64,000 nucleotides of DNA from Lewinellaceae bacterium SD302 (GTDB lineage: Bacteria; Bacteroidota; Bacteroidia; Chitinophagales; Saprospiraceae), in assembly GCA_002591745.1 (NCBI GenBank), contig PDLQ01000006.1, positions 62,001 through 126,000 on the forward strand, given 5' to 3'. Shown here piece by piece: positions 12,536-62,721 of the stretch; the stretch's first letter is position 1, and every line of letters begins with the position of its first letter. Made by a program: the position numbers and the translations under genes. The notes beneath the pieces are model-generated. The model ran no database searches and was not told the DNA's origin. It saw only the letters and a list, made by a program, of their open reading frames with translations.

Positions 12536-12682
12536 AGCCGGTGAACGGATAAGGAGGCGGATGGTTCTGCGCAAGCAGTAGCAACTACATCCGTAATAAG
12601 CCCATACTCTGGTAGATCAGAAGAATTGAAATACTTGTTTTGGGTCCTCTCATACTTCTTAGAGTTTGTATAAATCCAGCTT

Positions 12683-12692
12683 TGCTACTTTG
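12683..12692 (-). repeat. CAAAGTAGCA motif, intergenic copy
   Basis: The minus strand reads GGACTTCAAAGTAGCAAAG. The copy lies in the 284-bp gap before the first DUF2807 gene, with TGCTACTTTG pointing toward that gene. A TTTG 17 bases upstream makes a weak promoter-like reading possible. Nothing else is recognisable in 12536-12819. Confidence 0.8.
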
Positions 12693-12819
12693 AAGTCCGC
12701 AGGAAACAGCAAGTAGGGGTAAAGTATGGTCAGCTACATCTATAGCCTGAGAGCCGGGATGCAACCTTTAGCAAACTGCCTCGTCTTTAATTTTAACATT
12801 CACTACAAATACGCCAGCA

Positions 12820-13580: not shown

Positions 13581-14309
13581 ATGAAAAACGTACTCATTAT
13601 ATTCGCCCTCACATTATTCACCACTACCAGCTGTGTAGCTCAGTGGGGAAACTGGAAAGCAATAAAAGGCGATGGCAATATTGTCACCAAAGACCGTGAT
13701 GTCAGCGATTTCGACGAAGTGAAAGCCAGCGCCAGTATCGCCGTATACGTGACGAAGGGCAATAAATTTTCCGTTCAGGTAGAAACTGACGAAAATCTTC
13801 AGGAACATATCCGCACCGAAGTCAGCGGCGACCGTCTGAACGTGGGCGTCATGGATAAGTCCAACATCAATCCCAGTAAGCGCGTGAAGGTCTACGTCAC
13901 TATGCCAGAGATTGTGGCCTTGCAAAGTAGCAGTTCTTCCAAACTGATTTGCAAGAGTGCTTTTACAGGAAAAGACCTGGATTTGGACGTCAGCAGTTCC
14001 GGTTATATAGAAGTTGAATTTTCCGGTAAGTACGTTGAAACCCAAGGCAGTAGCTCCGGCAAGATAGACTTGAAAGGCAGCGCTGATAAATTCCGTTTCA
14101 GAGGATCTAGTTCTTCCGTTGTCGATGCCAAAGAATTTGTCGCCAAAAGCGTGAAAGCCAGGGGGAGTTCCAGTTCTCGGCTTTACATCCAGGTAACCGA
14201 TGAGATCGATTCCGACCTCAGTTCCAGTGCCCGCGTGGAATACTCCGGTGACCCCGATCGGGTCTATAGTGACTTGAGCAGCGGCGGTAAAGTCCGGAAG
14301 GTCAACTAA
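13581..14309 (+). CDS. DUF2807 (putative auto-transporter adhesin, head GIN) protein, copy 2
   Basis: A 242-residue paralogue of the preceding protein, with signal peptide (LIIFALTLFTTTSCVAQ) and the domain opening GDGNIVTKDRDVSDFDEVKA. Where copy 1 has Ala/Gly turns, this one has Ser-rich turns (SSSSKL, SSSGYIEVE, SSSGKIDLKG), so the same solenoid has been resurfaced. 'Ser-Cys' in the signal peptide (TTTSCVAQ) leaves a lipoprotein reading possible but the -3 position is poor. An exact CAAAGTAGCA copy at 13923 encodes LQSSS. A rho-independent terminator follows at 14451. Confidence 0.88.
   Translation: MKNVLIIFALTLFTTTSCVAQWGNWKAIKGDGNIVTKDRDVSDFDEVKASASIAVYVTKGNKFSVQVETDENLQEHIRTEVSGDRLNVGVMDKSNINPSKRVKVYVTMPEIVALQSSSSSKLICKSAFTGKDLDLDVSSSGYIEVEFSGKYVETQGSSSGKIDLKGSADKFRFRGSSSSVVDAKEFVAKSVKARGSSSSRLYIQVTDEIDSDLSSSARVEYSGDPDRVYSDLSSGGKVRKVN
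13923..13932 (+). repeat. CAAAGTAGCA motif inside DUF2807 copy 2
   Basis: Read in the gene as CAA AGT AGC A (Gln-Ser-Ser), in a Ser-rich solenoid turn. Exact 10-mer; followed by GTT rather than RTG, so its 3' flank is not conserved. Confidence 0.7.
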
Positions 14310-19945: not shown

Positions 19946-20048
19946 ATTGTGAGCTTGGCAGGTCAAGCGATCTGTTTTTGGTGACGTCAGGTTCATAAAG
20001 GCTTGTTTTTCAGGAAATAGAAATCCAAACAAACTCTTACATCGGCAC

Positions 20049-20058
20049 TGCTACTTTG
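20049..20058 (-). repeat. CAAAGTAGCA motif, intergenic copy before the symporter operon
   Basis: The minus strand reads GGCTTCAAAGTAGCAGTG. It lies 18 bases before the DUF4212 ATG, oriented with TGCTACTTTG toward the gene. It shares CACTGCTACTTTGAAG and the following CAAAATA with the copy at 26600. Confidence 0.85.
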
Positions 20059-20075
20059 AAGCCAAAATATCTTCC

Positions 20076-20401: not shown

Positions 20402-22303
20402 ATGGACGTACAAGCCTGGACATTCCTCATCGTCGGTATCACCTTCGCGCTTTACATCGGCATCGCTATCTGGGCCAGGGCGGGTTCCACCAAGGAATTT
20501 TACGTAGCCGGTGGTGGCGTGCACCCCGTTGCCAACGGTATGGCCACGGCGGCTGACTGGATGAGCGCGGCTTCCTTCATTTCCATGGCGGGTATCATTT
20601 CCTTCGGCGGTTACGACGGAAGTGTTTACCTGATGGGCTGGACGGGTGGCTACGTGCTACTGGCCCTCCTCTTGGCACCCTATCTAAGGAAGTTCGGCAA
20701 GTTCACCGTGCCAGATTTTATTGGTGATCGTTACTATTCCAACACCGCGCGGACGGTGGCCGTGATCTGTGCCATCGTAGTCTCGTTTACCTACGTGGCC
20801 GGGCAGATGCGCGGGGTCGGCCTGGTTTTCTCCCGCTTTCTGGAGGTAGACATCAACACCGGCGTTTACATCGGTACCGCCATCGTTTTCTTCTACGCCA
20901 TCCTGGGCGGTATGAAGGGTATTACATACACCCAGGTGGCCCAATTTTGCGTACTCATCTTCGCTTACATGGTGCCGGCCATTTTCATTTCCATCAAAAT
21001 GACCGGTAATCCGATTCCTCAACTCGGCTTCCTCGGCGAAGCCAGCGGAGAGGGCATTGCCTTATTGGACAAGCTGGACGGCCTTCATCGCGACCTCGGT
21101 TTCGCCGAGTACACGGACGGCAGCAAATCGATGATCGATGTCTTTGCCATCACCTTCGCGCTCATGGCCGGTACGGCCGGTCTGCCCCACGTGATCGTCC
21201 GCTTTTTCACGGTACCCAAAGTGAAAGACGCGCGGATTTCCGCTGGTTGGGCTTTACTGTTTATTGCCATTTTATACACTACGGCCCCGGCCATCGCCGC
21301 TTTTGCGCGTACCAATTTGATCACCACAATTCAGGATACTCCCTATACCGAGTTGCCTGGCTGGTTCAAAAAATGGGAAGAAACCGCCCTCATCGCCTGG
21401 GTGGATAAAAATGAGGATGGAAAAATAAATTACGCTCCAGGGCCGCCGTTTGAGGGAAAGCCGGAGCAAGTTATGGTGACTGACAACTCTGAGGACGAAG
21501 GACAACTCCGAGGAGCTAGCGACGATCACCGCAGGTCATCAGCGAGCCAATTAGATGATTCGGACTACCAAAGTAGCAGTGTTTTTGGCGAAGCTAAAGT
21601 AGCAGTGGGAACGTATGGCCAAATGCTGGTGGCAAATGAACCGACCGACAATCCTAACGAAGTCTATATCGACCGCGACATTATGGTCTTAGCTAATCCG
21701 GAGATCGCTCAGTTGCCAGATTGGGTCATTGCCCTGGTGGCTGCCGGTGGCCTGGCCGCCGCCCTGTCTACCGCCGCCGGTTTGCTGCTGGTTATTTCTA
21801 CGGCGGTCAGCCGCGATTTGATGAAAATGCAGATCAAGCCAAATATGAGTGATCGGGAAGAACTCTGGTGGGCCAGGGGAGGCGCAGCGGCGGCCGTGCT
21901 CGTAGCCGCTTACTTCGGCGTCAATCCGCCGGGTTTTGTGGCGGCAACGGTAGCGCTGGCCTTTGGGTTAGCGGCCGCTAGTTTCTTTCCGGCCATCGTC
22001 CTGGGCATCTTTGATAAACGCATGAACCAGCAGGGGGCGATATCCGGTATGGTTGTCGGCATTTTGTTGATGTTCGGCTACATGGCCGTTTTCAAACTCG
22101 GCTGGTTTGTAGATGAGGTACCCCCTGGTACTGACTGGTGGTTTGGAATTTCACCCGAGGGTTTTGGTAGCGTGGCAATGGTTGTCAACCTGATCGTATC
22201 CATGGTCATCAGCCGGATGACGCCGCCTCCGCCAGTATCGGTGCAGGAGATGGTGGAGCATATTCGGGTACCGAGTGGAGCAGGGGAGGCGCACGATCAT
22301 TAA
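20402..22303 (+). CDS. Sodium/solute symporter large subunit (acetate-permease-like) carrying an in-frame inserted element
   Basis: A 633-residue SSS-family transporter (VC_2705 subfamily, ActP-like) with about 13 transmembrane helices. Typical motifs: FYVAGGGVHPVANGMATAAD, AASFISMAGI, and VAAGGLAAALSTAAGLLLVIS. The large soluble loop after residue about 320 carries a Ca-binding-like DKNEDGKINYAPGPPFEGKP segment. Directly after this, residues 357-402 are an extra block (NSEDEGQLRGASDDHRR...YQSSSVFGEAKVA) that does not fit the family and is also found in the unrelated TPR-CHAT protein at 57959. The family sequence then resumes (YIDRDIMVLANPEIAQLPDWV). The protein should still fold, since the block sits in a loop. 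Forms a unit with the DUF4212 gene; acs lies 2.2 kb downstream. Confidence 0.93.
   Translation: MDVQAWTFLIVGITFALYIGIAIWARAGSTKEFYVAGGGVHPVANGMATAADWMSAASFISMAGIISFGGYDGSVYLMGWTGGYVLLALLLAPYLRKFGKFTVPDFIGDRYYSNTARTVAVICAIVVSFTYVAGQMRGVGLVFSRFLEVDINTGVYIGTAIVFFYAILGGMKGITYTQVAQFCVLIFAYMVPAIFISIKMTGNPIPQLGFLGEASGEGIALLDKLDGLHRDLGFAEYTDGSKSMIDVFAITFALMAGTAGLPHVIVRFFTVPKVKDARISAGWALLFIAILYTTAPAIAAFARTNLITTIQDTPYTELPGWFKKWEETALIAWVDKNEDGKINYAPGPPFEGKPEQVMVTDNSEDEGQLRGASDDHRRSSASQLDDSDYQSSSVFGEAKVAVGTYGQMLVANEPTDNPNEVYIDRDIMVLANPEIAQLPDWVIALVAAGGLAAALSTAAGLLLVISTAVSRDLMKMQIKPNMSDREELWWARGGAAAAVLVAAYFGVNPPGFVAATVALAFGLAAASFFPAIVLGIFDKRMNQQGAISGMVVGILLMFGYMAVFKLGWFVDEVPPGTDWWFGISPEGFGSVAMVVNLIVSMVISRMTPPPPVSVQEMVEHIRVPSGAGEAHDH
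21470..21607 (+). mobile_element. In-frame dispersed element, copy A (46 codons)
   Basis: A 138-bp block inside the symporter gene that aligns without gaps to 59264-59401 on the other strand (32 of 40 residues identical in the core 21485-21604). Its 5' end holds a near-tandem direct repeat GACAACTCYGAGGA (21482-21495 and 21501-21514), and its 3' end holds two related words, CAAAGTAGCAGTG (21569) and TAAAGTAGCAGTG (21595). No transposase, and no obvious target duplication. It resembles in principle the protein-coding palindromic elements of Rickettsia, but I recognise no named family. Confidence 0.85.
21569..21578 (+). repeat. CAAAGTAGCA motif inside element copy A
   Basis: Codons CAA AGT AGC AGT (Gln-Ser-Ser-Ser) preceded by GGACTAC. 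A one-mismatch second copy (TAAAGTAGCA, 21595-21604) follows in a different codon phase (Lys-Val-Ala). Confidence 0.9.
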
Positions 22304-26575: not shown

Positions 26576-26599
26576 TTTGGGCCCTCTAACCATAACCAC

Positions 26600-26609
26600 T
26601 GCTACTTTG
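26600..26609 (-). repeat. CAAAGTAGCA motif overlapping the start of the SGNH lipoprotein gene
   Basis: The minus strand reads TTGACTTCAAAGTAGCAGTGG. On the plus strand TGCTACTTTG supplies the TTG (26607) that is the best start codon of the following gene. Confidence 0.85.
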
Positions 26610-27272
26610 AAGTCAAAATACCTCATCATACTGCTTGCTATTATTTTTGTAGCCTGCAACCCGCCCGTCAACAAACGCCACATTCTGATCATTGGCGACG
26701 ATTACGCTGCGGGAAGAGATGGCTGGGTCCAGGCTTTCCAACGAATCAGAAAGGGTGGTCCACTGCTCAATACTGCGGTGATGGGGGCAACTACGGCCTT
26801 TCCGAATCCCAGTTCCCCTCAGACGAATTCCCTGGACCAACTGGTGCCGAACCTGCGGCGGGGTTTTGCGGAAATGGGAGCCGTTGATGAAGTGATCGTG
26901 CAACTGGGCCTGAACGACTGCCAGAAACGTTATCAAGCGGGCAGTGTGGAGCAGTCCGTCAGCTTCCGTGAACTGATCGCCGAGATCGACTCCTTTTTTC
27001 TCAAACGGGGACAAGACGCTCCCCGGATCGTATTGGTTTCGCCACCGCCCCTTGCCGCGGATGAAACGCTCGATGCCACCTTTGCCGGAGGAGCGGATTG
27101 TGTGGCCAGGATAACGGCCAATGTGCAACAGTTGGCTAATAGTCGGGACCTGTGCTTCGTCGACCTTAGCGCCAATCCACTTTTGGAAACTTATCGCAAC
27201 GCCAATGGCTACACCTACACCCAGGAAGGATTGGAGATCATGGCCCGATCGATACTCAAAAACTGTTACTGA
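26607..27272 (+). CDS. SGNH-hydrolase-fold lipoprotein lacking catalytic residues
   Basis: About 221 residues. Starting at TTG 26607 gives LKSKYLIILLAIIFVACNPP, a lipoprotein signal with lipobox FVAC; a TTG at 26577 would add ten residues and no ATG fits. The fold is SGNH/GDSL: block I ILIIGDDYAAG, block III VIVQLGLNDCQKRY (GxND present), PRIVLVSPPP. However, the nucleophile Ser of GDS is Asp here (GDD), and block V, which should hold DxxH, reads NGYTYTQEGLEIM without His. It is probably a non-catalytic binding protein, or an enzyme with altered chemistry. It lies 124 bp after acs on the same strand. Confidence 0.75.
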   Translation: MKSKYLIILLAIIFVACNPPVNKRHILIIGDDYAAGRDGWVQAFQRIRKGGPLLNTAVMGATTAFPNPSSPQTNSLDQLVPNLRRGFAEMGAVDEVIVQLGLNDCQKRYQAGSVEQSVSFRELIAEIDSFFLKRGQDAPRIVLVSPPPLAADETLDATFAGGADCVARITANVQQLANSRDLCFVDLSANPLLETYRNANGYTYTQEGLEIMARSILKNCY

Positions 27273-27664: not shown

Positions 27665-28963
27665 TCAGAATTCAACCTTGAATCTCGTCCAGCCATCCGC
27701 ATCGGTACTCAGGTCGTAGCTGGCTCCGTGGGCTTCCAGAATATCACGGCTGAGCGTCAGACCGATTCCCTGTCCACTGGGTTTACTGCTAAAGAAAGGC
27801 GTAAAAATCAGATCGGTGTGTTCCGTGGCGATCCCCGGGCCGTTGTCGGCGATAACGAAGCCGGCAGGGCGTTCGGTCAACTCGATCCGGATCGTACCTT
27901 TTTCTCCGGCCAGACTTTCCCGGGCGTTCGTTAATGCGTTGATAATCACTTGTTCCAGTTGAGCGGCGTCGGCAGCGACGTAAACCGGCGATCCGGAGTT
28001 GGGATAGAGAAGTTCTATTTTATCCGCTCGCATACCGGCTTTGAAGAGTTGGCCCGTTTTGGCTAACAAAGTAGCAAGGTCAATGCGTTTGAGTTCAGGG
28101 GAGGGGAGGCGGATCACCCGCGCAAAAGCCTTCATAAAACCGTTCATCTTGTTCCCCCGCTCAATAACCAGCGGAAGGTACTCAGCGACCATCTCCTGAC
28201 CAGTCTTGGCATCCAGATCTTTGGTGTCCAGTAAGCTTTCCAACATGGATTGGGTGGCACCATTGCTGTTGTTCACCTCGTGGGCCATCATGCGGATAAC
28301 CTTGCCGTAGGCCTCTTTTTCGGCGGAAAGCAAGTCACGGGTAATGTCCTGCACCAGAATGAAACTCCTTTGAAATCCACGGTCGACAAAACTGCCCTTT
28401 TCTACCCGATACCGCTGGGCGCCGGGCAGGTTGAATACTTCAGCCCGGTTGATTTTTAGCATTGCCAACTGCTTGGCCAGATTATTATTAAGCTCATCCA
28501 GCTTTTTCCCGCTTGATCCGTTTTTAAACTTGAGACGCTTTTCCGCCCAAGGGTTAAGCGAAGCTATCCGATCATCGTGGTCCAGAATTATGATACCGAG
28601 TTCCGCGGAAGAAATAAGCTTTTGTAAGAAATAGTGTTTCTCTTCTGCCTTGGTTCTTTCCAACCGCAGATTTTCCACCATTCGATTGTAAAGACTAACA
28701 ATCCGGTCGACCTCAGGACTATCGCTAGACAAAAATTTGACGGTAAAATCTCCATCTTCCAATGCAGCCTCTCCCCGTTTAACCAAATCGGCCGGGGCCA
28801 GGAAAATGCGGTAAAAAGCCATACCGATGATCAGAGAGATCAGCAACAAAACTTCTACGCCCAGAAACCAGTATAGCTTTTCGCTCAACAATTGATAGGC
28901 CAATCCGCCAATTATGACGTGCAGACTAAGCAGGTAAACGAAATAACGGTACTTAGTCGTCAT
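27665..28963 (-). CDS. NtrY-like sensor histidine kinase
   Basis: About 432 residues from ATG 28963 (MTTKYRYFVYLLSLHV). Two transmembrane segments (about 8-27 and 31-50) are followed by a HAMP-like linker, a PAS-like domain (LGIIILDHDDRIASLNPWAEKRL), HisKA with MMAHEVNNSNGATQSML (phosphoacceptor His), and HATPase_c with NALTNARESL, ADNGPGIA and SGQGIGLTLSR. It lacks a large periplasmic domain, so it probably senses within the membrane or cytosol. Its first codons overlap the end of the NtrC-type regulator gene (ATGACGACTAA), so the two are coupled. A longer in-frame start (29005) would overlap further and is less likely. An in-frame CAAAGTAGCA copy is at 28067. Confidence 0.92.
   Translation of the reverse strand: MTTKYRYFVYLLSLHVIIGGLAYQLLSEKLYWFLGVEVLLLISLIIGMAFYRIFLAPADLVKRGEAALEDGDFTVKFLSSDSPEVDRIVSLYNRMVENLRLERTKAEEKHYFLQKLISSAELGIIILDHDDRIASLNPWAEKRLKFKNGSSGKKLDELNNNLAKQLAMLKINRAEVFNLPGAQRYRVEKGSFVDRGFQRSFILVQDITRDLLSAEKEAYGKVIRMMAHEVNNSNGATQSMLESLLDTKDLDAKTGQEMVAEYLPLVIERGNKMNGFMKAFARVIRLPSPELKRIDLATLLAKTGQLFKAGMRADKIELLYPNSGSPVYVAADAAQLEQVIINALTNARESLAGEKGTIRIELTERPAGFVIADNGPGIATEHTDLIFTPFFSSKPSGQGIGLTLSRDILEAHGASYDLSTDADGWTRFKVEF
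28067..28076 (+). repeat. CAAAGTAGCA motif inside the histidine kinase gene
   Basis: The plus strand reads GGCTAACAAAGTAGCAAGG. In the gene's sense it is GCT ACT TTG (Ala-Thr-Leu). Confidence 0.75.
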
Positions 28964-36804: not shown

Positions 36805-36841
36805 GGGTTGTAATCAGTTGACTATCAATTGCTTTGACTAA

Positions 36842-36851
36842 CAAAGTAGCA
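36842..36851 (+). repeat. CAAAGTAGCA motif upstream of the efflux operon
   Basis: Reads GACTAACAAAGTAGCAGTG, with both flanks conserved. It is 38 bases upstream of the sigma-54 -24 element, oriented with TGCTACTTTG toward the operon. Confidence 0.85.
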
Positions 36852-37016
36852 GTGCGGTGTTCGAAAACGGACACTTTAGCGTCCAGAAATGAACGCCGGA
36901 CGCCAGTCCCTACCAATCGTGTATAGTTTACACTAACTTAATCTGATTGTAAAGGCGGGTTAATGGTATGAGGTGACCTTTGCGCCATAATCGCATTCAA
37001 TCAATTCAACTCTGTT

Positions 37017-38800: not shown

Positions 38801-41656
38801 ATGCAAGCTTATATGCAACGTTTCATCTTATCAGCATTGCTACTTTGCAGTCTGACCATTTCCAACCTCCTGGCACAGGGAGCCATCAGTGGAACCGTTT
38901 ACGATAAAGCCAGCGGAGAAACAGTTATCGGTGCTTCGGTCCTTGAAAAGACCACCGGTGCCGTTACCATCACTGACTTCGACGGTAAATACACCTTCAA
39001 ACTTGATCCGGGAACTTACACCCTGGAATTTAGCTATATCGGCTATCCAAACCTCTTGGTTGAAGGGGTTGAAGTGAAGAAAGGGGAGATTGCCTACCAG
39101 GACGTGACCATGAGTGACGAGGACGGGGTCGAACTAGACCTGGACGTGACGGTCAAAGCCACACGGGTAACCAATTCCGAAGTAGGCGTCTTAATGCTTC
39201 GTAAAGAAGCCGCCGTAGTGACCGATAATATCGGTGCTCAGGAAATGGCCCGTTACGGTGCCTCCGATGCGGGTGGTGCTTTGAAGAAAGTGACCGGAAC
39301 CAGCGTGGAAGGTGGCAAGTACATTTTCGTGCGTGGTCTGGGTGATCGTTACTCCCTGGCCCAACTGAACGGCCTAACTATTCCGTCCACGGATCCATAC
39401 CGCAACAGCGCCCAGCTCGATCTGGTGCCCACCAATTTGATCGACAATATCAGTACGGCCAAGACCTCCAGCCCGGACCAGCCCGGTAACTTCACCGGCG
39501 GAAATGTGAACATCATCACTAAAAAATTTCCCGAACTGGAGACCTTCCAAATCAGTCTGAGCACCGGTTACAACAGTCAGAGTAATTTCATCGACAACTT
39601 CCAGACGCAGGAAACACCGAGCAACGACTACTTTGGATTCGACAATAGCCGCGGACTGCCCACGGCGCTGACGGACCCTGCTTCCCGTGAATTCCTGTCA
39701 CGTGGTGGTGCACTGGATGCCAACCGTGGCGACCAGGCTAGTGCTGAAGCTATTGACGCCGCCGCACGCAGTGTTATTCCTCAGGTAGCTCCGGACCAAG
39801 AGCGTTCCTTTCTGGACCACGGGCTCGCACTTAGTTACGGTAATCGGATCGATATGGGTAAGAATCGCCTGGGGGTCATTGCTACGGCTTCTTTCAAGCA
39901 GGATTACCAGCATCTGGATAATTTCAAAGTTGGTAACTGGCGCGTAATCAATACCGAGCGTGATAGTATGGATAACAATGGCGTTTTCAACCAAAACCGC
40001 AGCACCATCAATCCAACCCTGACCGGATTGCTTGGACTGACCTACCGGATAGGCGATAATAATGAGATTGGTTTCACCGGTATGTACAACCACTCTTCAC
40101 AAACGACCAGCCTGACTTCTCTGGGTGAGCGACCAAATGATCTTTTTGCTCCGCGTCTGGTGCAGGGATTTGCCCTGAGTCACATTGAACAGGAATTGAT
40201 CAACTACCAAGCCAGTGGAGAACACGTATTGCCTAACTTGAACAACCTGAAAATCGAATGGAGAGGCAGTTTGGTGAACAGCTCTCAGTACGAGCCTCAG
40301 ACGCGTTTCTTTGAGAACATTTTCAATACGGAAACCGGCCAATACGAAGAGGACGGTGCCGACCTCAATTCCCCTTTTTACTTCTGGCGGGAACTTCAGG
40401 ACGAACAAAAGATCGGTAAGATCGACATTACCTTGCCATTGGCTAACAAGTCGAACAGTATCAAAGTGGGTGGTTTGTACTCGATTAAAGATCGCGTAAG
40501 TACCCAGGACGCTTTCCGCTTGCGTTACGGTACCCGCTCTACGCCCCTGGATGAGCTGGGTGGTGACCAAAACGCTTTCGTTGCTGACGCGAATATGGGC
40601 ATTGCAGAACTGGCAAATGGCCGCTACCGTTTCGCCAATTATCTGATCGACGATACCGAGGCTTCTGACTCCTACGAAGGCAGTGAAGAAATTCTTGCTA
40701 CTTACGGTATGCTGACTTACCAGATCACGGACAAACTGAAATTTGTCGGTGGTGCTCGCCTGGAGATCACGAATACGGAAGCTGTTAGCCAGGACACCTC
40801 AGAAACCGTTGGCCGGATCGAAGAAACCGACCTGTTGCCTTCCGGTAATTTCATTTATGAACTGACCAAGGATTTCAATATCCGTGCTTCTTACAGCAAG
40901 ACCATTGCTCGTCCGACACTGCGGGAAATCTCTTCTTTCACCATCATCGATCCACTGACGAATACTTTCGAGCGTGGTAACCCGGATAGCCTCGGCCGTA
41001 GCCTGATCGACAACTTTGACCTGCGCTTCGAATACTTCCTGGGTGGAAATGAGCTGGTGGCGCTGAGTGGCTACTACAAGAAATTTACCGATCCGATTGC
41101 CCGCGTTCAATTACCGGTGAGTCCGAACAATGAATTTCAGTACCAGAACATGGACGAAGGCCACTTATTCGGAGTTGAATTCGAACTACGTAAAAAACTG
41201 GGCTTTGTATGGAATAAGCTGCAAAATTTCAGCTTCATTACCAATGCCAGCTTTATCTTCTCTGATATTTCAACGAACAATTCTGATTCTGATTCTGAGT
41301 TAGCGATAACTTCCCGCAACTTCATCGGCCAACCTGATTATATCATCAACGCCGCTTTGAACTACAGCCTGCCCGAGCAAGGCTGGGATATCGCCCTCGC
41401 CGCAAACGCCACTGGCGACCGAGTCGCTACCATCGGCTCCTTTAGTGGCAATCGCCGTGATCAGATCGCCCGTGCCCGTACCCAACTCGACTTCATCGCC
41501 AGCAAGAAGTTCGGCCGCGTAGGTACCCGCCTGAGTATCCTCAACATTCTCGATGATCCTTTCCGGGTATCCGCAGACTACAAAGGTGCCGAATACATCT
41601 TTCAGGACTTCCGCCGGGGAGTGGACGTGAAATTTAATGTCTCTTTTACTTTCTAA
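38801..41656 (+). CDS. TonB-dependent receptor with carboxypeptidase-like N-terminal domain
   Basis: About 951 residues. The start is ATG 38801 or 38813 (MQRFILSALLLCSLTISNLLAQG signal peptide, given here in parts). Then comes a carboxypeptidase-regulatory-like domain (GTVYDKASGETVIGASV, ITDFDGKYTFKLDPGTY), the plug (GAQEMARYGASDAGGALKKV ... VRGLGDRYSLAQLNG), and a 22-strand barrel ending in VDVKFNVSFTF. Plug and barrel follow the outer-membrane importer pattern; no SusD partner is present, so it is not a typical SusCD pair. It lies after a T9SS-exported protein. An out-of-phase CAAAGTAGCA copy lies in the signal peptide coding region (38838). Confidence 0.93.
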   Translation: MQAYMQRFILSALLLCSLTISNLLAQGAISGTVYDKASGETVIGASVLEKTTGAVTITDFDGKYTFKLDPGTYTLEFSYIGYPNLLVEGVEVKKGEIAYQDVTMSDEDGVELDLDVTVKATRVTNSEVGVLMLRKEAAVVTDNIGAQEMARYGASDAGGALKKVTGTSVEGGKYIFVRGLGDRYSLAQLNGLTIPSTDPYRNSAQLDLVPTNLIDNISTAKTSSPDQPGNFTGGNVNIITKKFPELETFQISLSTGYNSQSNFIDNFQTQETPSNDYFGFDNSRGLPTALTDPASREFLSRGGALDANRGDQASAEAIDAAARSVIPQVAPDQERSFLDHGLALSYGNRIDMGKNRLGVIATASFKQDYQHLDNFKVGNWRVINTERDSMDNNGVFNQNRSTINPTLTGLLGLTYRIGDNNEIGFTGMYNHSSQTTSLTSLGERPNDLFAPRLVQGFALSHIEQELINYQASGEHVLPNLNNLKIEWRGSLVNSSQYEPQTRFFENIFNTETGQYEEDGADLNSPFYFWRELQDEQKIGKIDITLPLANKSNSIKVGGLYSIKDRVSTQDAFRLRYGTRSTPLDELGGDQNAFVADANMGIAELANGRYRFANYLIDDTEASDSYEGSEEILATYGMLTYQITDKLKFVGGARLEITNTEAVSQDTSETVGRIEETDLLPSGNFIYELTKDFNIRASYSKTIARPTLREISSFTIIDPLTNTFERGNPDSLGRSLIDNFDLRFEYFLGGNELVALSGYYKKFTDPIARVQLPVSPNNEFQYQNMDEGHLFGVEFELRKKLGFVWNKLQNFSFITNASFIFSDISTNNSDSDSELAITSRNFIGQPDYIINAALNYSLPEQGWDIALAANATGDRVATIGSFSGNRRDQIARARTQLDFIASKKFGRVGTRLSILNILDDPFRVSADYKGAEYIFQDFRRGVDVKFNVSFTF
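38838..38847 (-). repeat. CAAAGTAGCA motif in the TonB receptor signal-peptide region
   Basis: The minus strand reads AGACTGCAAAGTAGCAATG, with both flanks conserved. It is the only genic copy not in the common codon phase: the sense strand is read TTG CTA CTT TGC. Confidence 0.8.
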
Positions 41657-44000: not shown

Positions 44001-44831
44001 TCAGGACCAAATCTCCCAAGCCGCTTCTGCTTGTTCCCGCAACATGCCAATTCCGTTGCGGGTTTGCGCGCCTTCGTTCCTTGCATGCCGTAAAAATAGG
44101 GTTTCAGTAGGATTATAAACCAGGTCGTAGCAAAAGTGTTTTTCGTTCATTTTTTGGTAGGGTAGTGCGGGGCATTCATCTTGCCGGTAAATGCTGCCCA
44201 GGGGCGTACAGTTGATCAGGTAGCGATGGACTTCCATTACGTTGGCATCGATTTGCTCGTAGGTGATACGGTCGGGTCCCGGGCTTCTGCTTACCAGGGT
44301 CGTGGGAATTTCCAATTGCCGCAATGCTTCGCGGATTGCCAAAGACGCACCGCCGGTTCCCAGCACCATTGCTCTGCGGTCTACCGCCTTTCGAAAAGGA
44401 TTGTCGGGTTGAATACCAGCGCTGGCCGTTACTTTATAATCAGGACCACCACCACTTCCACTTAAGCGGACGACATGGCTACTTTGATAGCCAATAAAAT
44501 CTGAAAAGTCCTTTTGAAAACCGATCAGGTCGGTATTAAAACCTTTGGTCTTTCCGTTTTTCACCAAAATGGTGTTAACGGCTCCTATGAGTTCGGCGGC
44601 CGGGTCGATCTCGTCGAGATACTGCATCACCGCCTGTTTATGAGGAATGGTAACGTTAAGCCCGCGCAATTCAGGGTGTACCTCAATGATCTCTGGAAAA
44701 AGGCTAAGGTCCTGGAGCTCAAAATTGCGATATTCATGGGTGTTGTTCAACCTCATCTCTTTAAACTTTTCAGTAAAGTATGGGCGGGAGAAAGACTTGG
44801 AAATGGGGTAACCGATGAGGCCGAATAGCAT
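44001..44831 (-). CDS. aroE: Shikimate dehydrogenase with an internal insertion
   Basis: About 276 residues from ATG 44831 (MLFGLIGYPISKSFS; a longer frame to 44882 is unlikely). Shikimate-binding SKSFS, the catalytic Lys in NVTIPHKQAV, and Asp in GFNTDLIGF are all present; the NADP-binding loop is VLGTGGASLAI. It reduces 3-dehydroshikimate to shikimate in aromatic amino acid synthesis. Between GFNTDLIGFQKDF and VLGTGGAS lie about 43 residues where the family normally has about 16: an extra block (YQSSHVVRLSGSGGGPDYK...NPFRK) that begins with the CAAAGTAGC motif. The catalytic residues are intact, so the enzyme is probably functional. Confidence 0.93.
   Translation of the reverse strand: MLFGLIGYPISKSFSRPYFTEKFKEMRLNNTHEYRNFELQDLSLFPEIIEVHPELRGLNVTIPHKQAVMQYLDEIDPAAELIGAVNTILVKNGKTKGFNTDLIGFQKDFSDFIGYQSSHVVRLSGSGGGPDYKVTASAGIQPDNPFRKAVDRRAMVLGTGGASLAIREALRQLEIPTTLVSRSPGPDRITYEQIDANVMEVHRYLINCTPLGSIYRQDECPALPYQKMNEKHFCYDLVYNPTETLFLRHARNEGAQTRNGIGMLREQAEAAWEIWS
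44388..44489 (-). other. Probable in-frame insertion in aroE
   Basis: About 34 codons encoding YQSSHVVRLSGSGGGPDYK and a further stretch to NPFRK, without counterpart in normal AroE. The block opens with TATCAAAGTAGCCATG, matching the dispersed motif at nine of ten core positions plus the preceding GGCTA. Not similar in sequence to the 46-codon element except for this opening. Confidence 0.5.
44478..44486 (-). repeat. CAAAGTAGC motif (one-base variant) in aroE
   Basis: The minus strand reads GGCTATCAAAGTAGCCATG; the tenth core base is C instead of A. In phase as CAA AGT AGC (Gln-Ser-Ser). Confidence 0.7.
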
Positions 44832-45499: not shown

Positions 45500-46436
45500 G
45501 CTCTTCTCTTAGCTCGTCCCGCCCCAATCTTTCCATAACGAACACCAGAATTATTCCTAGCAAAGTAGCAAAGATGACGGCCAACACAATGGGATCGCCC
45601 TGGTAAGCAGCGGGCAGTACATTCTCTTCCATCAACGGCACTTCCTCGCCGGAGCTGTTAGTCCGGAAAGTCAGGGTATTACGCCAGGGCCACAATTTAT
45701 TAAGAGAGCCTAGCATGAACCCCGTGAGGATGGCAAAGGTAGGATTAGGGAACTTTTTAAAAGTGTAAGACAGCACGCGACTGAAAAGTGCCAGACCGGC
45801 CAGGCACCCGAGCGCGAAAACGCCGACCGTAATCAGTTGGCTGGAATCGCCGCTCAACAACTCCTTCACCGCGGGCAAAATGACGGTGTACATACCCAGC
45901 AAAACAAGGATGAAGCTTCCTGAAATACCGGGTAGGATCAGCGCTGAAATAGCGATGGCACCCGCCAGAAAAACAAAGATTGGCGCGGTACTGCCCCCAA
46001 GCGGATTGATGATCGTAAGCCCGTAGGCGAAGCCAGCTCCCGCCAGAAACAGGATGATTTCCAAGGCAGACCAGTGACCTACCTGCTTACCGATATAAAT
46101 GGCCGAAGCTATGATAAGACCGAAAAAAAAGGCCCAGACCGCCGGCGGATATTCCTCCAGCAGGATAGTTATGGAAAAAGCTGCGGCAATCAGCCCGACG
46201 GCCATACCACCTACTAACTGGACGAGGAACCAGCCGTCGATCCGCTCCCAGGCAGCGGAGAAACCTTCTTTACGCAAAGTGGTGATAACGGCGGGGTCAA
46301 GAATCTTGGTAATGGCATCCAACAAACGTTCGTAGATGCCAGTGATGAAAGCGATGGTACCGCCGCTGACGCCGGGGATGGCTTCGGCAACACCCATAGC
46401 TATTCCTTTTAATAGGAGAGATAATTCAAACTTCAT
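45480..46436 (-). CDS. DUF368 undecaprenyl-phosphate translocase-like protein
   Basis: A 318-residue membrane protein with eight to ten helices and the DUF368 opening GIAMGVAEAIPGVSGGTIAFITGIYERL, plus the second conserved motif LILPGISGSFILVLLGMY. DUF368 proteins (PopT) recycle the carrier lipid undecaprenyl phosphate across the inner membrane for cell-wall and polymer synthesis. The 3' end overlaps the convergent gene by 20 bp. An in-phase CAAAGTAGCA copy near the C-terminus encodes Ala-Thr-Leu. Confidence 0.9.
   Translation of the reverse strand: MKFELSLLLKGIAMGVAEAIPGVSGGTIAFITGIYERLLDAITKILDPAVITTLRKEGFSAAWERIDGWFLVQLVGGMAVGLIAAAFSITILLEEYPPAVWAFFFGLIIASAIYIGKQVGHWSALEIILFLAGAGFAYGLTIINPLGGSTAPIFVFLAGAIAISALILPGISGSFILVLLGMYTVILPAVKELLSGDSSQLITVGVFALGCLAGLALFSRVLSYTFKKFPNPTFAILTGFMLGSLNKLWPWRNTLTFRTNSSGEEVPLMEENVLPAAYQGDPIVLAVIFATLLGIILVFVMERLGRDELREELIEDED
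45561..45570 (+). repeat. CAAAGTAGCA motif inside the DUF368 gene
   Basis: The plus strand reads CCTAGCAAAGTAGCAAAGATG; sense codons GCT ACT TTG. The upstream flank is only partly conserved. Confidence 0.7.
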
Positions 46437-49421: not shown

Positions 49422-52400
49422 TTACTGGTGTACGACTTTATTAGCAAAACCAGTACCATCCTGATATTGTCCTTTTACCCAATATACTCCGGTGGGCAAG
49501 CTGGCAAATTCAAGCGTAACTGTGTTTTGTTTTTGTCCTGTTGGGACCCGGCGAACGAGTTTACCCTGCAGGTCATAGATTGAAAGGGCTACCAGATGGG
49601 TCGGCTCTGCAAATTGAATAGTCAACTGACCGTCGGTAGGGTTCGGGAAAAACCGGGGAGCAGCAGTTTCGAACTCACTGGTACTTACCAGGTAAGCACA
49701 GGCCGGAGACTGGTTGGTGTAGTTGATCGTAATTCCCGTCGGATTAAAAGTAGTGCATTGAGTTCCCTGTTCCTGGTAGTAATCAATACAGTTCGTTGCG
49801 GCGGCGTCGATCACGAAAGGCGTTGAAGAGCCACAGGAGAAGGTATTACCGGCCGGTTGAGCAAGAGATCCTTGTTGGGGCTGAATACAATCCAGGAAGT
49901 GAAAATCTACCTGGTTGTCGAAATTCTGGTTGCACAGGAACTCCAAACCAGTTCCACTAGCTGCTACGTTATCGCCCCAGGCGGTGAATCCTTCATCGGC
50001 ATTTTGAGCAATGTTATTGTAGATCAGGTGGTAAGGAAAGAATGAACCACCCGGGTTGTTGGGGTTGATCGTATTCAGGATATCGTAGGCTCGGGTCCAG
50101 TTGGGCCATCCACTCGGTTTCCAGCAGTGGTTTTCTTCCATAGTGAAACCTGAACTTTGTTTCGTGACAATCCCGTAAGAATTGATGCCCAATGGATGCC
50201 CCATTTCGATCTCATTTTTCAAGATCAGGCTTTCATTGTTCACGTCGAGCAAGGAGATGCCGATCTCATTTGCTGAAAATTTGGCTTGCTCAATCCTTAG
50301 TGAAAATGGATTGTCTTCCTGTACATTTTCGATCGTTATTCCAGCTTTCAGAGATTCGAAGCGGTTGCTCGGGCCAGTACCTTGAATCACCCTAATGGTT
50401 GCTTCCAAAGCGCCGATGCCGGTTCGGTATTCGTTAGCCGACAACAATCCTGTTCTCTGATCAGTGAACAGACAGCCGGTAAAGGTGACACCATCCACAC
50501 CGAACAGCGTAACGAAAGGAGAGTTGCTACCACAATTCGACCGATAATCATCATTGAGCTCAAAGGTGCACTGATCGAAGAATCCGATGTTCGGGGCCGT
50601 TCCACCCGCATTGCTACTTTGATAGTACAAATACTGAGCAGACCTACGGTTGTTGATAAAGTTACAGCCAGTTGCCCGCACAATACCCCCATCAAAAACA
50701 TTGATGACGGACTTTCCGTAGGAGAAGGTACTGCCGCTGACGACGAGTAAGCCCTGGTTGGCGTTCGTTTGTAGCACAGTGCCGTTTCCTTGTACGGTAA
50801 TTCCATCCCAACAAGCATCTTCACACAAGGCAGACAGGTCGGAATTCAGAATTTGTAAGCGAGCACCCGGCTCTACGGTGATTTTCACATCTGCCGCCAG
50901 TCGAATCGTAGCGTCGATAATATCGAGCGACTGACCTGATTTAACTACTAGATCGGAATAAAGAACCCGCTCGTCTCGCCAGATTTCCGGACTGGCGATC
51001 TCATGTTCACGATCGAAGCTGGGCAATGGGTTCAGGGAGCTTTGGTAGATTCCCCGGCCGTGAGTAGTAGCCACGAGCGTATTTTTGCAATAGTTAATGT
51101 CCAAGTCGGTTACCCAGACCAGAGGCAGGTTTTCGTTGAAACATTCCCAACTGCTCATGCTATTGTCGCGGTAGTAAACGCCGGCATCGGTGCCGACCAA
51201 GACCACGTCATCGGAGTTGTAGTAGTAGGTCATGGCATTAACCGGCAAATCCGGTAGCCCATCCGAATAATCGGTGAAGGTCGTTCCTCCGTTCGTACTT
51301 TTGAACACACGTTTGCCAGCTGAAGTCCCCATCATACTAACGAACACGAGGTCCTCATCATAAGGAGATACAAGGATGTCACCGACGCCCATCCAGCCGG
51401 TAACGTCGGTAAACGGTTGATTGTAAGGGAAAACGGTATTGTGACTAAGGTCTTCCCAGGTTCCGGTACCGAAGTTGTCGATCTTAAGCAATTTCCCACT
51501 TTGACCGGCGGGATAGCTGCCCTGGCGATTGCCAACGAATACCTGTAAGGGCTTCGCCTCCGTCAATCCGATGGATCCGATCTGTTCAAGATAATGCCCG
51601 GTTTGATTCCCATTTGCGTTAGACAATGGCTGAGGAGCGGGAGCTGCACTGGGGCAATCATTATACAGGACAAGACTCGCAGCCGGGTTTGCCCCCGCAT
51701 CGTTTCCGTAGAACACCCAACACGGACGAGCGGGGTGGAGCTCCAAGGGGTTGCCGAATTGCCATTGGTTCGTTCTGCCGATTAGGGTTCCAAAGCCTGA
51801 GGAGCAGAGGTTATTGATGTCGTCTTTGTAAATAAAAGGATTGATACTGTAATAGACGGTTGTTTTGTCGATCGGGTTGATCTCAACATCACCGCCATCG
51901 CCGGCCCCAAATTTGCAGACCGTACCTCCGTTGCTTAGAAAGCTGTTGTTGTGCATAGCCCCGGCTGCCCAGTTCATTTGGCAGGATTGGGTGATTCCGA
52001 TCCCCCAAAATTGCTGAATGGGCATGGTATCACCGGAGATGGGGCGAAAACTGATACCACTACTGCTGAGACCTAGCGAAGGGTCGAAAAGCGATTCCGT
52101 GACGCCGCCGTCATTGGCCATAAAGCAGACTTCTTTTCCCGCGGGATTGAAGCCGGCGATAGAAAAATCACGCACGTCGGCGTGTTGGGCGGTGGACGGA
52201 GCCGTATAGAAAACGGCATTGTTGTCATCCCAGGCATGGAAGCGCGTACCACCGAGGTAGACGATGCCGGTAGCCGGTGAATACTCAATGGCCAGTTTGC
52301 TGGTTTTAAGTTGCAGGCTGGAATGGCGCAGCGACCATGTCACTCCGCCGTCGATCGATTTGTATAGATCATCTCCATCATTTCCTTTTGTTCGGGCGAA

Positions 52401-57233: not shown

Positions 57234-57953
57234 ATGAATGAAGAGAAAATACAAGAATACGTAAGCGGTAGCCTGCCGAAAGCCGAAGCCGAAGCGGTAG
57301 CAGCGATCATCGCCGCCGATCCGGATCTGACTCGTCTGGCCGAGCAATACCGCATTATATACAAAGGATTGAGACTTCAGCGAATCAGTGAATTGGAAAA
57401 TGAACTTACGAATTCAGCAAATGGCTCCACCCATAATCCGGGTAAAAAGTCTTTCCGAAAATGGATATGGGGGATCGGAATAGCAGCTGTTCTACTGGCT
57501 GCTTTCGGTGTATTCCAGCAAATCAACTATTATGCGTCAGCTTCCATCGCCGAAAGATATTTCCAACTTCCGCCGGACCCCCGTCTAGCAGGACAGGAAA
57601 CCGAAATGGCGCAATACAGCCGGTCAATCGACGACTTTTACGCCGGTAACCACCTAGCTGCGATCGCCGGTTTTTCCGGACTTCAAAGTAGCAATGATTA
57701 CGGAGTACTTGCGCGCTTCTATCTTCCACACGCTCAATTTTTAGCCGGTAATCTCACCGAAGCAGACAGAGCTTTCGAATCTGCCCTGCGTCTTACGGAT
57801 CTTTCCGAAACCGATCTCGAGTTACTACGCTGGAACACCATGATCACCGATCTGGCACAGGGTGAGGACATTGACGAACAACTCGCGCAGGGGTGGGGGA
57901 GTGGCTTCCCGGCCGACCAACTTCGTGAGGAATTAAATGCTGTCTGGCGTTGA
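57234..57953 (+). CDS. Putative membrane anti-sigma factor with periplasmic TPR-like domain
   Basis: A 239-residue protein: N-terminal cytosolic segment (EEKIQEYVSGSLPKAEAEAVAA, an anti-sigma-like helical start without the zinc motif HxxxCxxC), one transmembrane helix about 77-95 (WGIGIAAVLLAAFGVFQQI), then a helical region with TPR features (YSRSIDDFYAGNHLAAIAGF, YLPHAQFLAGNLTEADRAFESAL). It directly follows the sigma gene, the usual arrangement for a sigma/anti-sigma pair. Its stop is five bases from the 3' end of the convergent TPR-CHAT gene. An in-phase CAAAGTAGCA copy encodes LQSSN. Confidence 0.75.
   Translation: MNEEKIQEYVSGSLPKAEAEAVAAIIAADPDLTRLAEQYRIIYKGLRLQRISELENELTNSANGSTHNPGKKSFRKWIWGIGIAAVLLAAFGVFQQINYYASASIAERYFQLPPDPRLAGQETEMAQYSRSIDDFYAGNHLAAIAGFSGLQSSNDYGVLARFYLPHAQFLAGNLTEADRAFESALRLTDLSETDLELLRWNTMITDLAQGEDIDEQLAQGWGSGFPADQLREELNAVWR
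57684..57693 (+). repeat. CAAAGTAGCA motif inside the anti-sigma gene
   Basis: Reads CGGACTTCAAAGTAGCAATG; both flanks conserved. Codons CAA AGT AGC AAT (QSSN). Confidence 0.8.
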
Positions 57954-60924: not shown

Positions 60925-62721
60925 TTATTGCCGGTAGCCGATTGCCCCCATCAGGCTAGGGTCTGCGGCCTGGTTCATGGCTGGGATAGTATTGCCTGGC
61001 AAAGTAGCAATGGGGGTGGTTTGCTGGGCAGAGAGTAGCAATGTCTTTAATTCAGCTGCTGACCGGGGAATACCGTTTGAGGCGCGATGCAAAATGGCCG
61101 CCCTGCGAGCCACCACGGCGGTGGCCATCGAGCTGCCATCCAATGGAATGGTTCCGCTGCCGGAACCGGCAAGGGCAGCGGTAATGCTGGTTCCCGGTGC
61201 CGCCAGATCTACGACACTGCCGTAATTGGAGAAAGCCGCAAGTTGGTAACTCACTACTGAATTCTGACCGTTTAGAATCAATGTGTCCAGTGCCGCCACG
61301 GAAATTGTGTTCTTGTCTAATGCTACATCCGTGCTGAACATGGAAGGCCAGTGCCAGCAAGTGTCCACCGACCGGGAATCATTCCCTACGGATGCCACTA
61401 CGAGAATATCACTCGCAGCCGTCTTGAGCATTTGATCGTACAGTACATCATTAAATATATCCGAATAGTATCCCCAACTCAGGTTGATGATGTCCACTTC
61501 CTGGTCTACGGCGTAATTGATGGCACAGATCCCGGCGAAGAGATCACATTCAAAAGCATCGCTATCGGCCAGGTAGCCACCGAACTGAACCGGCATCACC
61601 CGCACATTTTTACGGGGAATCTGATTAGCGGTCAGGACTGTATAGGCCAAATGAGAACCATGACCTTTTTTATCCGCTGGATTATTATCACCGTGGAAAA
61701 AGTCATATCCGTAATAATCATTAAGCAAGCAGTTGTTATTCTGGTCATTTCTATCACCGCTCCACGGCTCTCCGTAAGCGGCCGTATCCCTGACTGAAGC
61801 AGGCGTATCCGGAAAAAGTATTTCCCGGGTGAGTACAAAATAATCATTGATCGCGATCGGGCCATACTCTCCGGAATAATTATAGGTAGGGTCGGCACCG
61901 GTATCGATGATGGCAACTTTGGTGGTACTGTCCGGCAAACTACGCCGCGGGTAAAAATTAACGTGTTTACAGTTTTGCATGCTGCGTTCGACTGCATTGT
62001 CTCCACCCTTGGTTTGCGGACAAACAGTGTCGAACTCTGCCTGGTCCATCCCGGCAAGCAGTTCGTCTTCGTTGACGGGTTGAAGGATAAGCTCGTAATT
62101 GAAGCCGGCCGCATAAACCGCACCTTCGCCGTTCTTCCTGGTTTTTGTGGAGCCTTTTGCGATACCGTTATTGATATCGACGTTGTCCGGCACCAGTGCA
62201 CGCATCAGGTAAATCTCTTCGGCGCACTCGCAACTGTCCGTCACGAAAAGGCTGTCGAAATAATAACTGGTGGAGTCATCGAAAAAGAACTTGTTCACTT
62301 CGGCCAGGATTACATCCATTATGTATGGCGTGCCGATGAGCATGGTATCGATGGAAATATCAGGAGTTGAAGCGCAATCTAGATTAGGAAGCGTATCCCA
62401 GGGGGTAATGGCGGAAAAGGCCGAAGACTCTGCTTCGTTTTGATCCGTTGGGTCATTCGGGCGCTCCGGAATATCAGTGTCTCCGCTGTCCTCCACACAG
62501 CGGTATAAAGTGTCCGGCGCTCCAAACAGATCGAAACCCGTTAGATCAGGGTTCATCAGTACAATGATTTCTACCAGACTTGAATCACCATTATAGATCG
62601 GGGTACTGAAATTACATGCGGTGTCCTCCTTAACGGGCGGCGGTAAAGGACAGCCGAAAGTAAAGAGCAGGGAAGTGATGACCCCCAGGGCCATCATTTT
62701 GAAGGTAAGTGTGTGTTTCAT
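60925..62721 (-). CDS. Subtilisin-like (S8) serine protease lipoprotein
   Basis: About 598 residues from ATG 62721 (MKHTLTFKMMALGVITSLLF, lipobox FTFGC); an upstream in-frame start at 62784 is unlikely. The catalytic triad is intact: Asp in VAIIDTGADPTYN, His in KKGHGSHLAYTVL, Ser in LDGSSMATAVVARRAA; the oxyanion Asn is in VASVGNDSR. The N-terminal 270 residues are an uncharacterised domain with several Cys, possibly a propeptide or substrate-binding part. It is the first gene of a two-gene unit with TPR-CHAT (gap 17 bp). Outer-membrane or periplasmic protease. Confidence 0.92.
   Translation of the reverse strand: MKHTLTFKMMALGVITSLLFTFGCPLPPPVKEDTACNFSTPIYNGDSSLVEIIVLMNPDLTGFDLFGAPDTLYRCVEDSGDTDIPERPNDPTDQNEAESSAFSAITPWDTLPNLDCASTPDISIDTMLIGTPYIMDVILAEVNKFFFDDSTSYYFDSLFVTDSCECAEEIYLMRALVPDNVDINNGIAKGSTKTRKNGEGAVYAAGFNYELILQPVNEDELLAGMDQAEFDTVCPQTKGGDNAVERSMQNCKHVNFYPRRSLPDSTTKVAIIDTGADPTYNYSGEYGPIAINDYFVLTREILFPDTPASVRDTAAYGEPWSGDRNDQNNNCLLNDYYGYDFFHGDNNPADKKGHGSHLAYTVLTANQIPRKNVRVMPVQFGGYLADSDAFECDLFAGICAINYAVDQEVDIINLSWGYYSDIFNDVLYDQMLKTAASDILVVASVGNDSRSVDTCWHWPSMFSTDVALDKNTISVAALDTLILNGQNSVVSYQLAAFSNYGSVVDLAAPGTSITAALAGSGSGTIPLDGSSMATAVVARRAAILHRASNGIPRSAAELKTLLLSAQQTTPIATLPGNTIPAMNQAADPSLMGAIGYRQ
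61000..61009 (+). repeat. CAAAGTAGCA motif inside the subtilisin gene
   Basis: The plus strand reads CCTGGCAAAGTAGCAATGG; sense codons GCT ACT TTG (Ala-Thr-Leu) near the C-terminus. Confidence 0.75.

Follow-up and report, generated by a model that had tools for sequence, protein, structure and literature searches.

How did one and the same 138-bp block come to lie, in frame, inside two unrelated genes of Lewinellaceae bacterium SD302? Both genes, one encoding a sodium:solute symporter and the other a TPR-CHAT protein, belong to the stretch of 64,000 nucleotides analysed here (contig PDLQ01000006.1, positions 62,001 to 126,000; hereafter the window), and an earlier interpretation made without database searches, here called the sequence-only reading, saw in the block an element of 46 codons shared by these two genes. 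The explanation that we slightly favour has two layers: a 19-bp word scattered over the genome, K (GRCTNNCAAAGTAGCARTG), would be of the type of a DNA uptake signal, and a mini-element, M, would be lodged in K, with those copies in genes that keep the reading frame surviving.

The inserted unit and its family

Using BLAST within the genome, we aligned the block of the symporter gene with that of the TPR-CHAT gene at E = 2.6e-40 and 86% identity, a likeness well past what chance would give. Coordinates, open frames and Pfam matches agree with the places, strands and frames that the sequence-only reading had given for the block in the SSF and CHAT genes: the symporter gene (PF00474; 20402..22303, plus strand) is an open frame of 633 aa with the insert in a length-variable loop, and the TPR-CHAT gene (PF12770; 57959..60916, minus strand) is an open frame of 985 aa with the insert between its TPR and CHAT parts. 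In both genes the left half of K, a 111-bp M and the right half of K make up a compound of 130 bp (21478..21607, plus strand, and 59264..59393, minus strand), in which 32 of 43 residues are identical between the two copies. In the symporter copy both K halves follow the K consensus (GACTGACAA at 21478..21486 and AGTAGCAGTG at 21598..21607, plus strand) and enclose M at 21487..21597 (111 bp or 37 codons, plus strand), the boundaries of which are uncertain by 2 bp, with AA at each end. The M of the TPR-CHAT copy (59274..59384, minus strand) has the same length of 111 bp or 37 codons, and the right half of K next to it carries one mismatch (GGTAGCAATG). Each M contains in addition one complete K, read as DYQSSSV in the symporter (21563..21581, plus strand) and as GYQSSSA in the TPR-CHAT protein (59290..59308, minus strand).

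The compared congeners and orthologues lack the insert, as the sequence-only reading had supposed of the two protein families; among the symporter alignments it is lacking in the relatives in 16 of 17 rows, the seventeenth being a mis-picked frame. For both window genes a net gain of 37.0 residues is predicted if M alone was inserted and of 43.3 if the whole block was. The TPR-CHAT protein is 37 residues longer than both of its orthologues (four alignments, genomes G001 and G013), and the symporter is longer than the eight congener symporters listed by 35, 35, 36, 36, 37, 36, 36 and 37 residues. The net extra length is thus that of M only, and the K halves occupy positions of the host gene. 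Judged by these lengths, what was inserted into the 19-bp K measures 111 bp or 37 codons, and the 138-bp, 46-codon unit of the sequence-only reading has to be given up.

The block is almost certainly a member of a large dispersed family that lies in frame in many genes. Within the genome it has at least 57 BLAST matches at E<=10, with further copies on other contigs; its 5' word occurs at at least 73 sites at up to 3 mismatches (control words, 1 and 0) and its 3' word at at least 66 (control words, 7 and 1), and, with 150 of 5271 candidates scored, a profile built from 15 aligned short copies matched at least 161 times at E<=1. All these copy counts are underestimates. The dispersal over unrelated genes that the sequence-only reading had proposed is thereby borne out, while its restriction to two copies is not; given many copies and congeners without the insert, we found neither of the two situations that this reading had named as fatal to it, a block present in all distant orthologues and a gene conversion between two copies. 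An artefact of assembly or contamination, or a single round of gene conversion linking the symporter and TPR-CHAT genes, would account for the similarity of the two copies and has nothing else in its favour; in a genome that is 100% complete and 0.68% contaminated, with the 161 profile matches spread over many contigs, its probability is negligible.

The M family is modular. M is commonly 32-34 bp long, against 111 bp in the window copies; it starts with CTCYGAGGA, finishes with RGCT or GGT and is bordered by AA on either side, which may be a target duplication or a part of M. The commonest simple forms of the compound measure 51-53 bp and consist of GRCTNNCAA, a middle CTCYGAGGA...GGT or GCT, and AAAGTAGCARTG as the last part; extra modules, and often the complete word GRCTNNCAAAGTAGCARTG, extend others to about 62, 85, 94 and 120-130 bp. 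When the middle M is taken out of the 52-bp form, the left and right ends that remain together are the 19-bp K, which M interrupts between GRCTNNCAA and AGTAGCARTG. The right end of M runs into the right half of K (at up to 3 mismatches) in 62 of 86 cases from this genome and in 0 of 10 from other species, with the reservation that the stretches of this genome were partly fetched by K-like words, which favours adjacency to K. Taken with the net lengths above and the frame phases below, these ends make it very probable that M is lodged inside K.

Folded singly, six of six copies were no more stable than their shuffles (z +0.27 to +0.83), and the consensus fold of 15 copies reached -1.47 kcal/mol with one pair showing a two-sided change; these folds, and a search of six source stretches in Rfam that returned nothing but a tRNA, led us to reject the words ACC-GNA-GGT and AGC-GNA-GCT as covarying stems of mini-hairpins. 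Viewed by eye, the termini GGCTAAC.. and ..AAAGTAGCARTG have no more than GCTA/TAGC, 4 bp, in common as a terminal inverted repeat. A likeness of GGCTAACAA to integron attC sites was set aside because no complementary 3' site was seen. No longer, autonomous form of M was noticed among the copies without a right end, which were viewed by eye and not searched systematically. As for enzymes, the statement of the sequence-only reading that the window holds no transposase stands for the 39 proteins scanned with Pfam, out of 53 open reading frames (ORFs) of at least 150 aa; an IstB-type ATPase match in the window is DnaA, whose gene lies at 47913-49337.

Beyond this genome, the M pattern was found in 16 stretches when the contigs of 84,980 species were searched (records of this genome itself were possibly excluded): 11 in Lewinella cohaerens DSM 23179, two in metagenome-assembled genomes (MAGs) of uncultured Lewinella, two in a BCD1 MAG and one in a Chitinophagales MAG. 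These 16 foreign loci contain two K cores in total. Since M occurs without K in Lewinella cohaerens, M is probably the older and K the newer of the two in these bacteria. The M inserts of Lewinella cohaerens seem to be nested in other dispersed repeats too (L101, L103, L113; L099, L106, L110, L111), and by eye their flanks fall into two recurrent types, GTACTAAGTACC or near variants of it and a CCGTTTCTACTAGCGT-like sequence. The M pattern had no match in the viral contigs of IMG/VR, and the 138-bp block had none at E<=1e-3 in plasmids or phages; a phage or plasmid origin of M was set aside after these searches. The K word GRCTNNCAAAGTAGCARTG itself has exact matches in 18 IMG/VR contigs (L347-L364), one per stretch, which may be no more than chance matches.

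The K word across the genome

K is the more remarkable object of the two, given its estimated 1,500 or so copies and its resemblance in behaviour to an uptake signal. The 19-bp word sits within a motif of about 28 bp, a T-rich stretch followed by GRCYWN-CAAAGTAGC-ARTG-YT. The 10-mer CAAAGTAGCA, which belongs to it, is by z-score the most over-represented 10-mer of the window (13 against 0.13 expected), where the 9-mer core of K has 14 copies, 7 on each strand. The same 10-mer comes first by z-score in a sample of 464 kb (112 against 0.87 expected), made up of the window and twenty 20-kb stretches that were taken at round coordinates on large contigs and not selected for K; the ranking of all words refers to the window and to this sample. 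Over the whole genome the 13-mer CAAAGTAGCARTG has 351 exact copies in forward and 356 in reverse orientation, whereas the 247 other genomes counted, all from its family, have between 0 and 5 each.

The 464-kb sample contains 128 exact K cores where 4.1 are expected, from which about 1,500 copies in the genome are extrapolated. In 123 of these 128 the flanks score over the 99th percentile of random sites, with a flank matrix derived from those very sites. Cores with one mismatch number 145 against 103 expected, and just 17 of them have good flanks. Based on base composition, as is customary for uptake sequences, the over-representation of K is 36.0, 0.55 and 0.04 at 0, 1 and 2 mismatches, a drop of 66-fold from none to one and of 13-fold from one to two; four control 9-mers gave 9, 1, 4 and 3 copies against 3.5 expected. 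Exact sites and good one-mismatch sites taken together are balanced between the strands (76/69, n=145). Among the 128 cores, 69 are not in a coding frame, 46 are coding and 13 lie at an edge, coding being called by the codon usage of long frames and not from annotation, and the 46 coding sites divide into 22 in sense and 24 in antisense to the gene. All 11 pairs of K closer than 120 bp are inverted, at spacings that reach 106 bp, wider than in a tight hairpin, and their interiors showed no mutual relation by eye. One inverted pair (L287:1592-1693), between two frames, encloses what appears to be a long imperfect palindrome (CTAGATGCCAGACGCTAGATG...).

Against the 128 K cores, the same 464 kb hold 4 copies of AACTCYGAGGA and 4 of GACGATCASCG, two words of M, a ratio of about 30 to 1. 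K far outnumbers M and is therefore not debris of M. This ratio also bears on the proposal closest to the sequence-only reading, that a single mobile element of about 138 bp moves as a unit and becomes fused in frame, K being a mere common fragment of it. The 86% identity of the two 138-bp copies, the many related copies and the lack of the insert in relatives would all be expected of such an element. The excess of K over M would not, nor would a net insert of 37 residues instead of 43-46, block lengths that are all 1 mod 3, or the 12 of 17 coding K words that align to relatives without a gap (see below), and we regard movement of the whole unit as improbable.

How K words entered genes can be read from comparison with relatives. 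Of 59 coding or edge fragments, 42 passed filters; relatives were searched for 29 of them, and all 42 were compared with loci from earlier comparisons, fragments 30 to 42 without a dedicated search, which left 17 fragments with a usable relative and 25 with none. The alignment is gapless at K in 12 of the 17 (10 of the 14 alignable ones among the first 29), and in several conserved stretches K spells native residues, for example MAGKVAI in a segment that is 98% identical. From these alignments genic K words seem to arise mostly through base substitution in place, the route described for uptake sequences and not that of a mobile insert.

Two other repeats were noticed in the congeners. The word TGCACCTGCG, after which a CGCC-rich stretch often comes, is present 9 times in the sample of G013, 12 times in G001, 8 in G009, twice each in G010 and G003 and once in G008, with 0.06-0.25 expected per congener sample (L297-L314), and is not found in the sample of G020 or in the 464 kb of the SD302 genome. 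Some of its copies are close to the M module GATCACCGCAGGT in reverse complement; the word may be a further dialect or related to M. In G001 (L303-L306) a family of 12-mers around TTCTTGTGATGGATGAG has more than 50 repeats in 80 kb, probably as a tandem or CRISPR-like array.

Inserts inside genes and the reading frame

The bulk of the M-bearing elements lie outside genes: out of 152 mapped elements, 15 were kept as in-gene copies, from a table of 22 rows of which 7 were dropped as antisense duplicates or for weak flanks (C13, antisense; C93:189850, C71:14060, C57:11763, C64:50524, C56:81274 and C55:55463). Eleven of the 15 are read in the frame x-NNSEE..KVA, one in another sense frame (in a SpoU methylase gene) and three in antisense, in genes for an MFS protein, an M61 peptidase (in the signal peptide) and a heparinase. 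The antisense 52-bp compound at C61:76955-77006 appears to make up part of the signal peptide of the M61 peptidase. Some host names (CcoG, D-Ala ligase-like, GT39-like and ABC ATPase) are those that we presume from the look of the sequence, outside the Pfam scans, and the cupin assignment falls just under the Pfam cut-off (26.2 against 27.2 bits).

The length of the block minus 19 bp is divisible by three in 11 of 12 in-gene copies and in 22 of 65 copies outside genes, when the right end is taken as the last one found within 190 bp; two rows whose starts fall within the copies of the window are not among the 12, and C82, C126 and C115 have no recognised ends. Outside genes the three phases are evenly filled (22/24/19, n=65). 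The even phases point to no general selection for translatability, and the in-frame copies in genes look like survivors. By contrast, the sequence-only reading had taken the element to be selected to stay translatable, a view that these phases do not uphold; they also led us to reject the frame bias as a mark of coding origin. The whole-block lengths of 130, 94 and 52 bp are all 1 mod 3, so that insertion of a whole block would shift the frame.

Relatives matching both flanks were available for 8 of the 15 in-gene copies, the two of the window and six that could be measured, the other seven being not measurable. In the SusC-like copy the net gain of 8-12 residues agrees with the 11 expected for M, and in the D-Ala ligase-like copy the values are 11, 12, 18 and -31 for an M of 11.

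The M inserts in K are also a natural experiment on proteins that accept 11 to 37 foreign residues, in contexts as varied as a symporter loop, a nitrilase fold, a TonB receptor, an MFS loop and a signal peptide. The Rickettsia palindromic elements are, like M, small, dispersed and in frame in many unrelated genes (PMC10969869); the sequence-only reading had likened the block to them, and the likeness is good for this outcome and fails for the palindrome, since M copies fold like shuffles. M differs from them further in lying mostly outside genes (15 of 152 copies are in-gene) and within a specific dispersed word. The enterobacterial ERIC and RU repeats are likewise small and translatable when intragenic (PMC2759123, PMC2229807), but they are described as resembling miniature inverted-repeat transposable elements, whereas the terminal inverted repeats of M do not exceed 4 bp, and M sits in a landing word of 19 bp.

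An uptake signal or another role for K

In the papers cited here, sequence-specific DNA uptake is described for two families of proteobacteria (PMC2346458, PMC7811141), and it is with their words, the uptake signal sequences (USS) of Pasteurellaceae and the DNA uptake sequences (DUS) of Neisseriaceae, that K compares best in its statistical behaviour. Like these, K is a strongly over-represented word of the size of a 10-mer (PMC1939737, PMC2346458, PMC3630211), is estimated at about 1,500 copies, stands on both strands, within and between genes, appears to be gained in genes by point mutation, forms inverted pairs and drops steeply with mismatches; the successive drops are 92- and 9-fold in H. 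influenzae and 82- and 7-fold in N. gonorrhoeae (PMC1939737). Unlike these, K is unrelated in sequence, its host is probably a Lewinella-like member of the Saprospiraceae and not a proteobacterium, it is restricted to a single one of the genomes searched, and its role in uptake is putative. We give about an even chance to K being an uptake signal.

The sequence of events would then be as follows. Competent cells would prefer DNA bearing K, and transformation with recombination would enrich K over time, the copies within genes being gained mostly by base substitution. M inserts would enter K words, and those in genes would survive where they keep the frame, including the ones in the symporter loop and in the TPR-CHAT linker. 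M could be moved either by a transposase that is encoded elsewhere and targets K, or by short-homology recombination through the K halves during transformation. We put forward more tentatively, and as rather doubtful, that K is a working uptake signal of Bacteroidota, evolved independently of USS and DUS within one species and parasitised by M. A K-M-K fragment would in that case be taken up preferentially and could integrate at any K through its flanking K halves, and one and the same word would serve as uptake signal and as entry point for inserts, which would then become in-frame parts of proteins. A word of this type would come as a surprise in this branch of the bacteria; were it confirmed, another phylum would have an independent uptake word in one species, and how uptake specificity arises and is replaced could be tested directly because near relatives lack K. 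No uptake sequence of Bacteroidetes or Saprospiraceae and no Lewinella repeat is described among the open-access titles and abstract openings listed.

Several results weigh against this two-layered explanation. In four congeners the exact 13-mer was found 0, 1, 0 and 0 times, and 400 kb from seven congeners hold 9 K cores where equal base frequencies predict about 3.1; being near chance in congeners, K seems to lack the phylogenetic depth known for USS and DUS. A ComEC-family gene, which a competent cell should have, is present in the genome; since 10 of the 14 control genomes have one too, it is not diagnostic of competence, and that uptake caused the enrichment of K is something we infer, on statistical support. 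Five of the 17 coding K words lie at gaps of 2-6 residues, whereas control windows taken from these alignments have gaps in 8% of cases on average, so that K either prefers variable spots or sometimes arrived with small indels. With the first right end instead of the last, the in-gene copies in phase become 9 of 14 rows, not 11 of 14, and with the ends used here the copy in the ABC-ATPase gene breaks the phase. Nor do all net gains fit M: besides the two deviating values of the D-Ala ligase-like copy, the nitrilase-like copy has 29 residues for an M of 25, the cupin-like 23 for 9.7 (11 by its 52-bp length), the heparinase-like 12 for 9 and the MFS copy 17-37 for 20.

The five words at small gaps, the half-words common to K and M and a burst of K limited, as far as the search went, to this genome would also be expected if K were itself a tiny mobile element of 19-28 bp, inserting or copied by gene conversion, with M compounds as longer members of its family. 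Yet most of the coding K words compared replace native residues at unchanged length, even in highly conserved stretches, and no target duplication was noticed at the sites displayed, which makes such an element quite unlikely.

A weightier alternative, which we nevertheless consider unlikely, is that K is the binding site of some other genome-wide DNA-binding system, for chromosome organisation, segregation or a recombination hot-spot, and is targeted by M for that reason. The abundance of K, its strand balance and its substitution in genes would be explained equally well by such a system, and the presence of ComEC does not discriminate. Words of the Chi or KOPS type are short and oriented along replication. 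K, at about 28 bp, is balanced by strand over the genome (351/356) and by gene sense (22/24), the two measures taken, and its steep mismatch spectrum and inverted pairs fit uptake sequences best.

In the intergenic mosaic elements of Neisseria, dRS3 repeats flank inserts. This arrangement recalls the 11 inverted K pairs and the K-M-K compounds, in that a short abundant repeat brackets variable sequence, but the sequences of K and M, their host and their in-frame copies in genes are different, and a common ancestry is not implied.

The other K sites of the window illustrate the variety of its settings. Exact cores lie at 12680..12698 (minus strand), in a frame called neither coding nor edge, at 20046..20064 (minus strand), at the edge of a possible frame, and at 38835..38853 (minus strand), an edge site near the start of the ORF of a TonB-dependent receptor; a further K word stands between genes at 36836..36854 (plus strand). 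The exact core at 26597..26615 (minus strand), near the start of a GDSL-lipase ORF, is called coding in antisense (TTATLKS). K is also antisense in a histidine-kinase gene (28061..28079, plus strand; DLATLLA), where it is gapless against G013, in a gene resembling that of an undecaprenyl-phosphate translocase (45555..45573, plus strand; IFATLLG) and in a subtilase gene (60994..61012, plus strand; PIATLPG). It is read as ALQSSSS in the coding sequence of a DUF2807 protein (13917..13935, plus strand), as YYQSSNA in a protein of 1348 aa that has a secretion-tail domain (50609..50627, minus strand) and as GLQSSND in a coding sequence that is gapless there against a relative (57678..57696, plus strand). 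In the shikimate dehydrogenase gene K reads GYQSSHV (44474..44492, minus strand), and the stretch around it exceeds that of G013 by about 17 residues (107 residues of the query to 270 bases), an indel that may have brought K.

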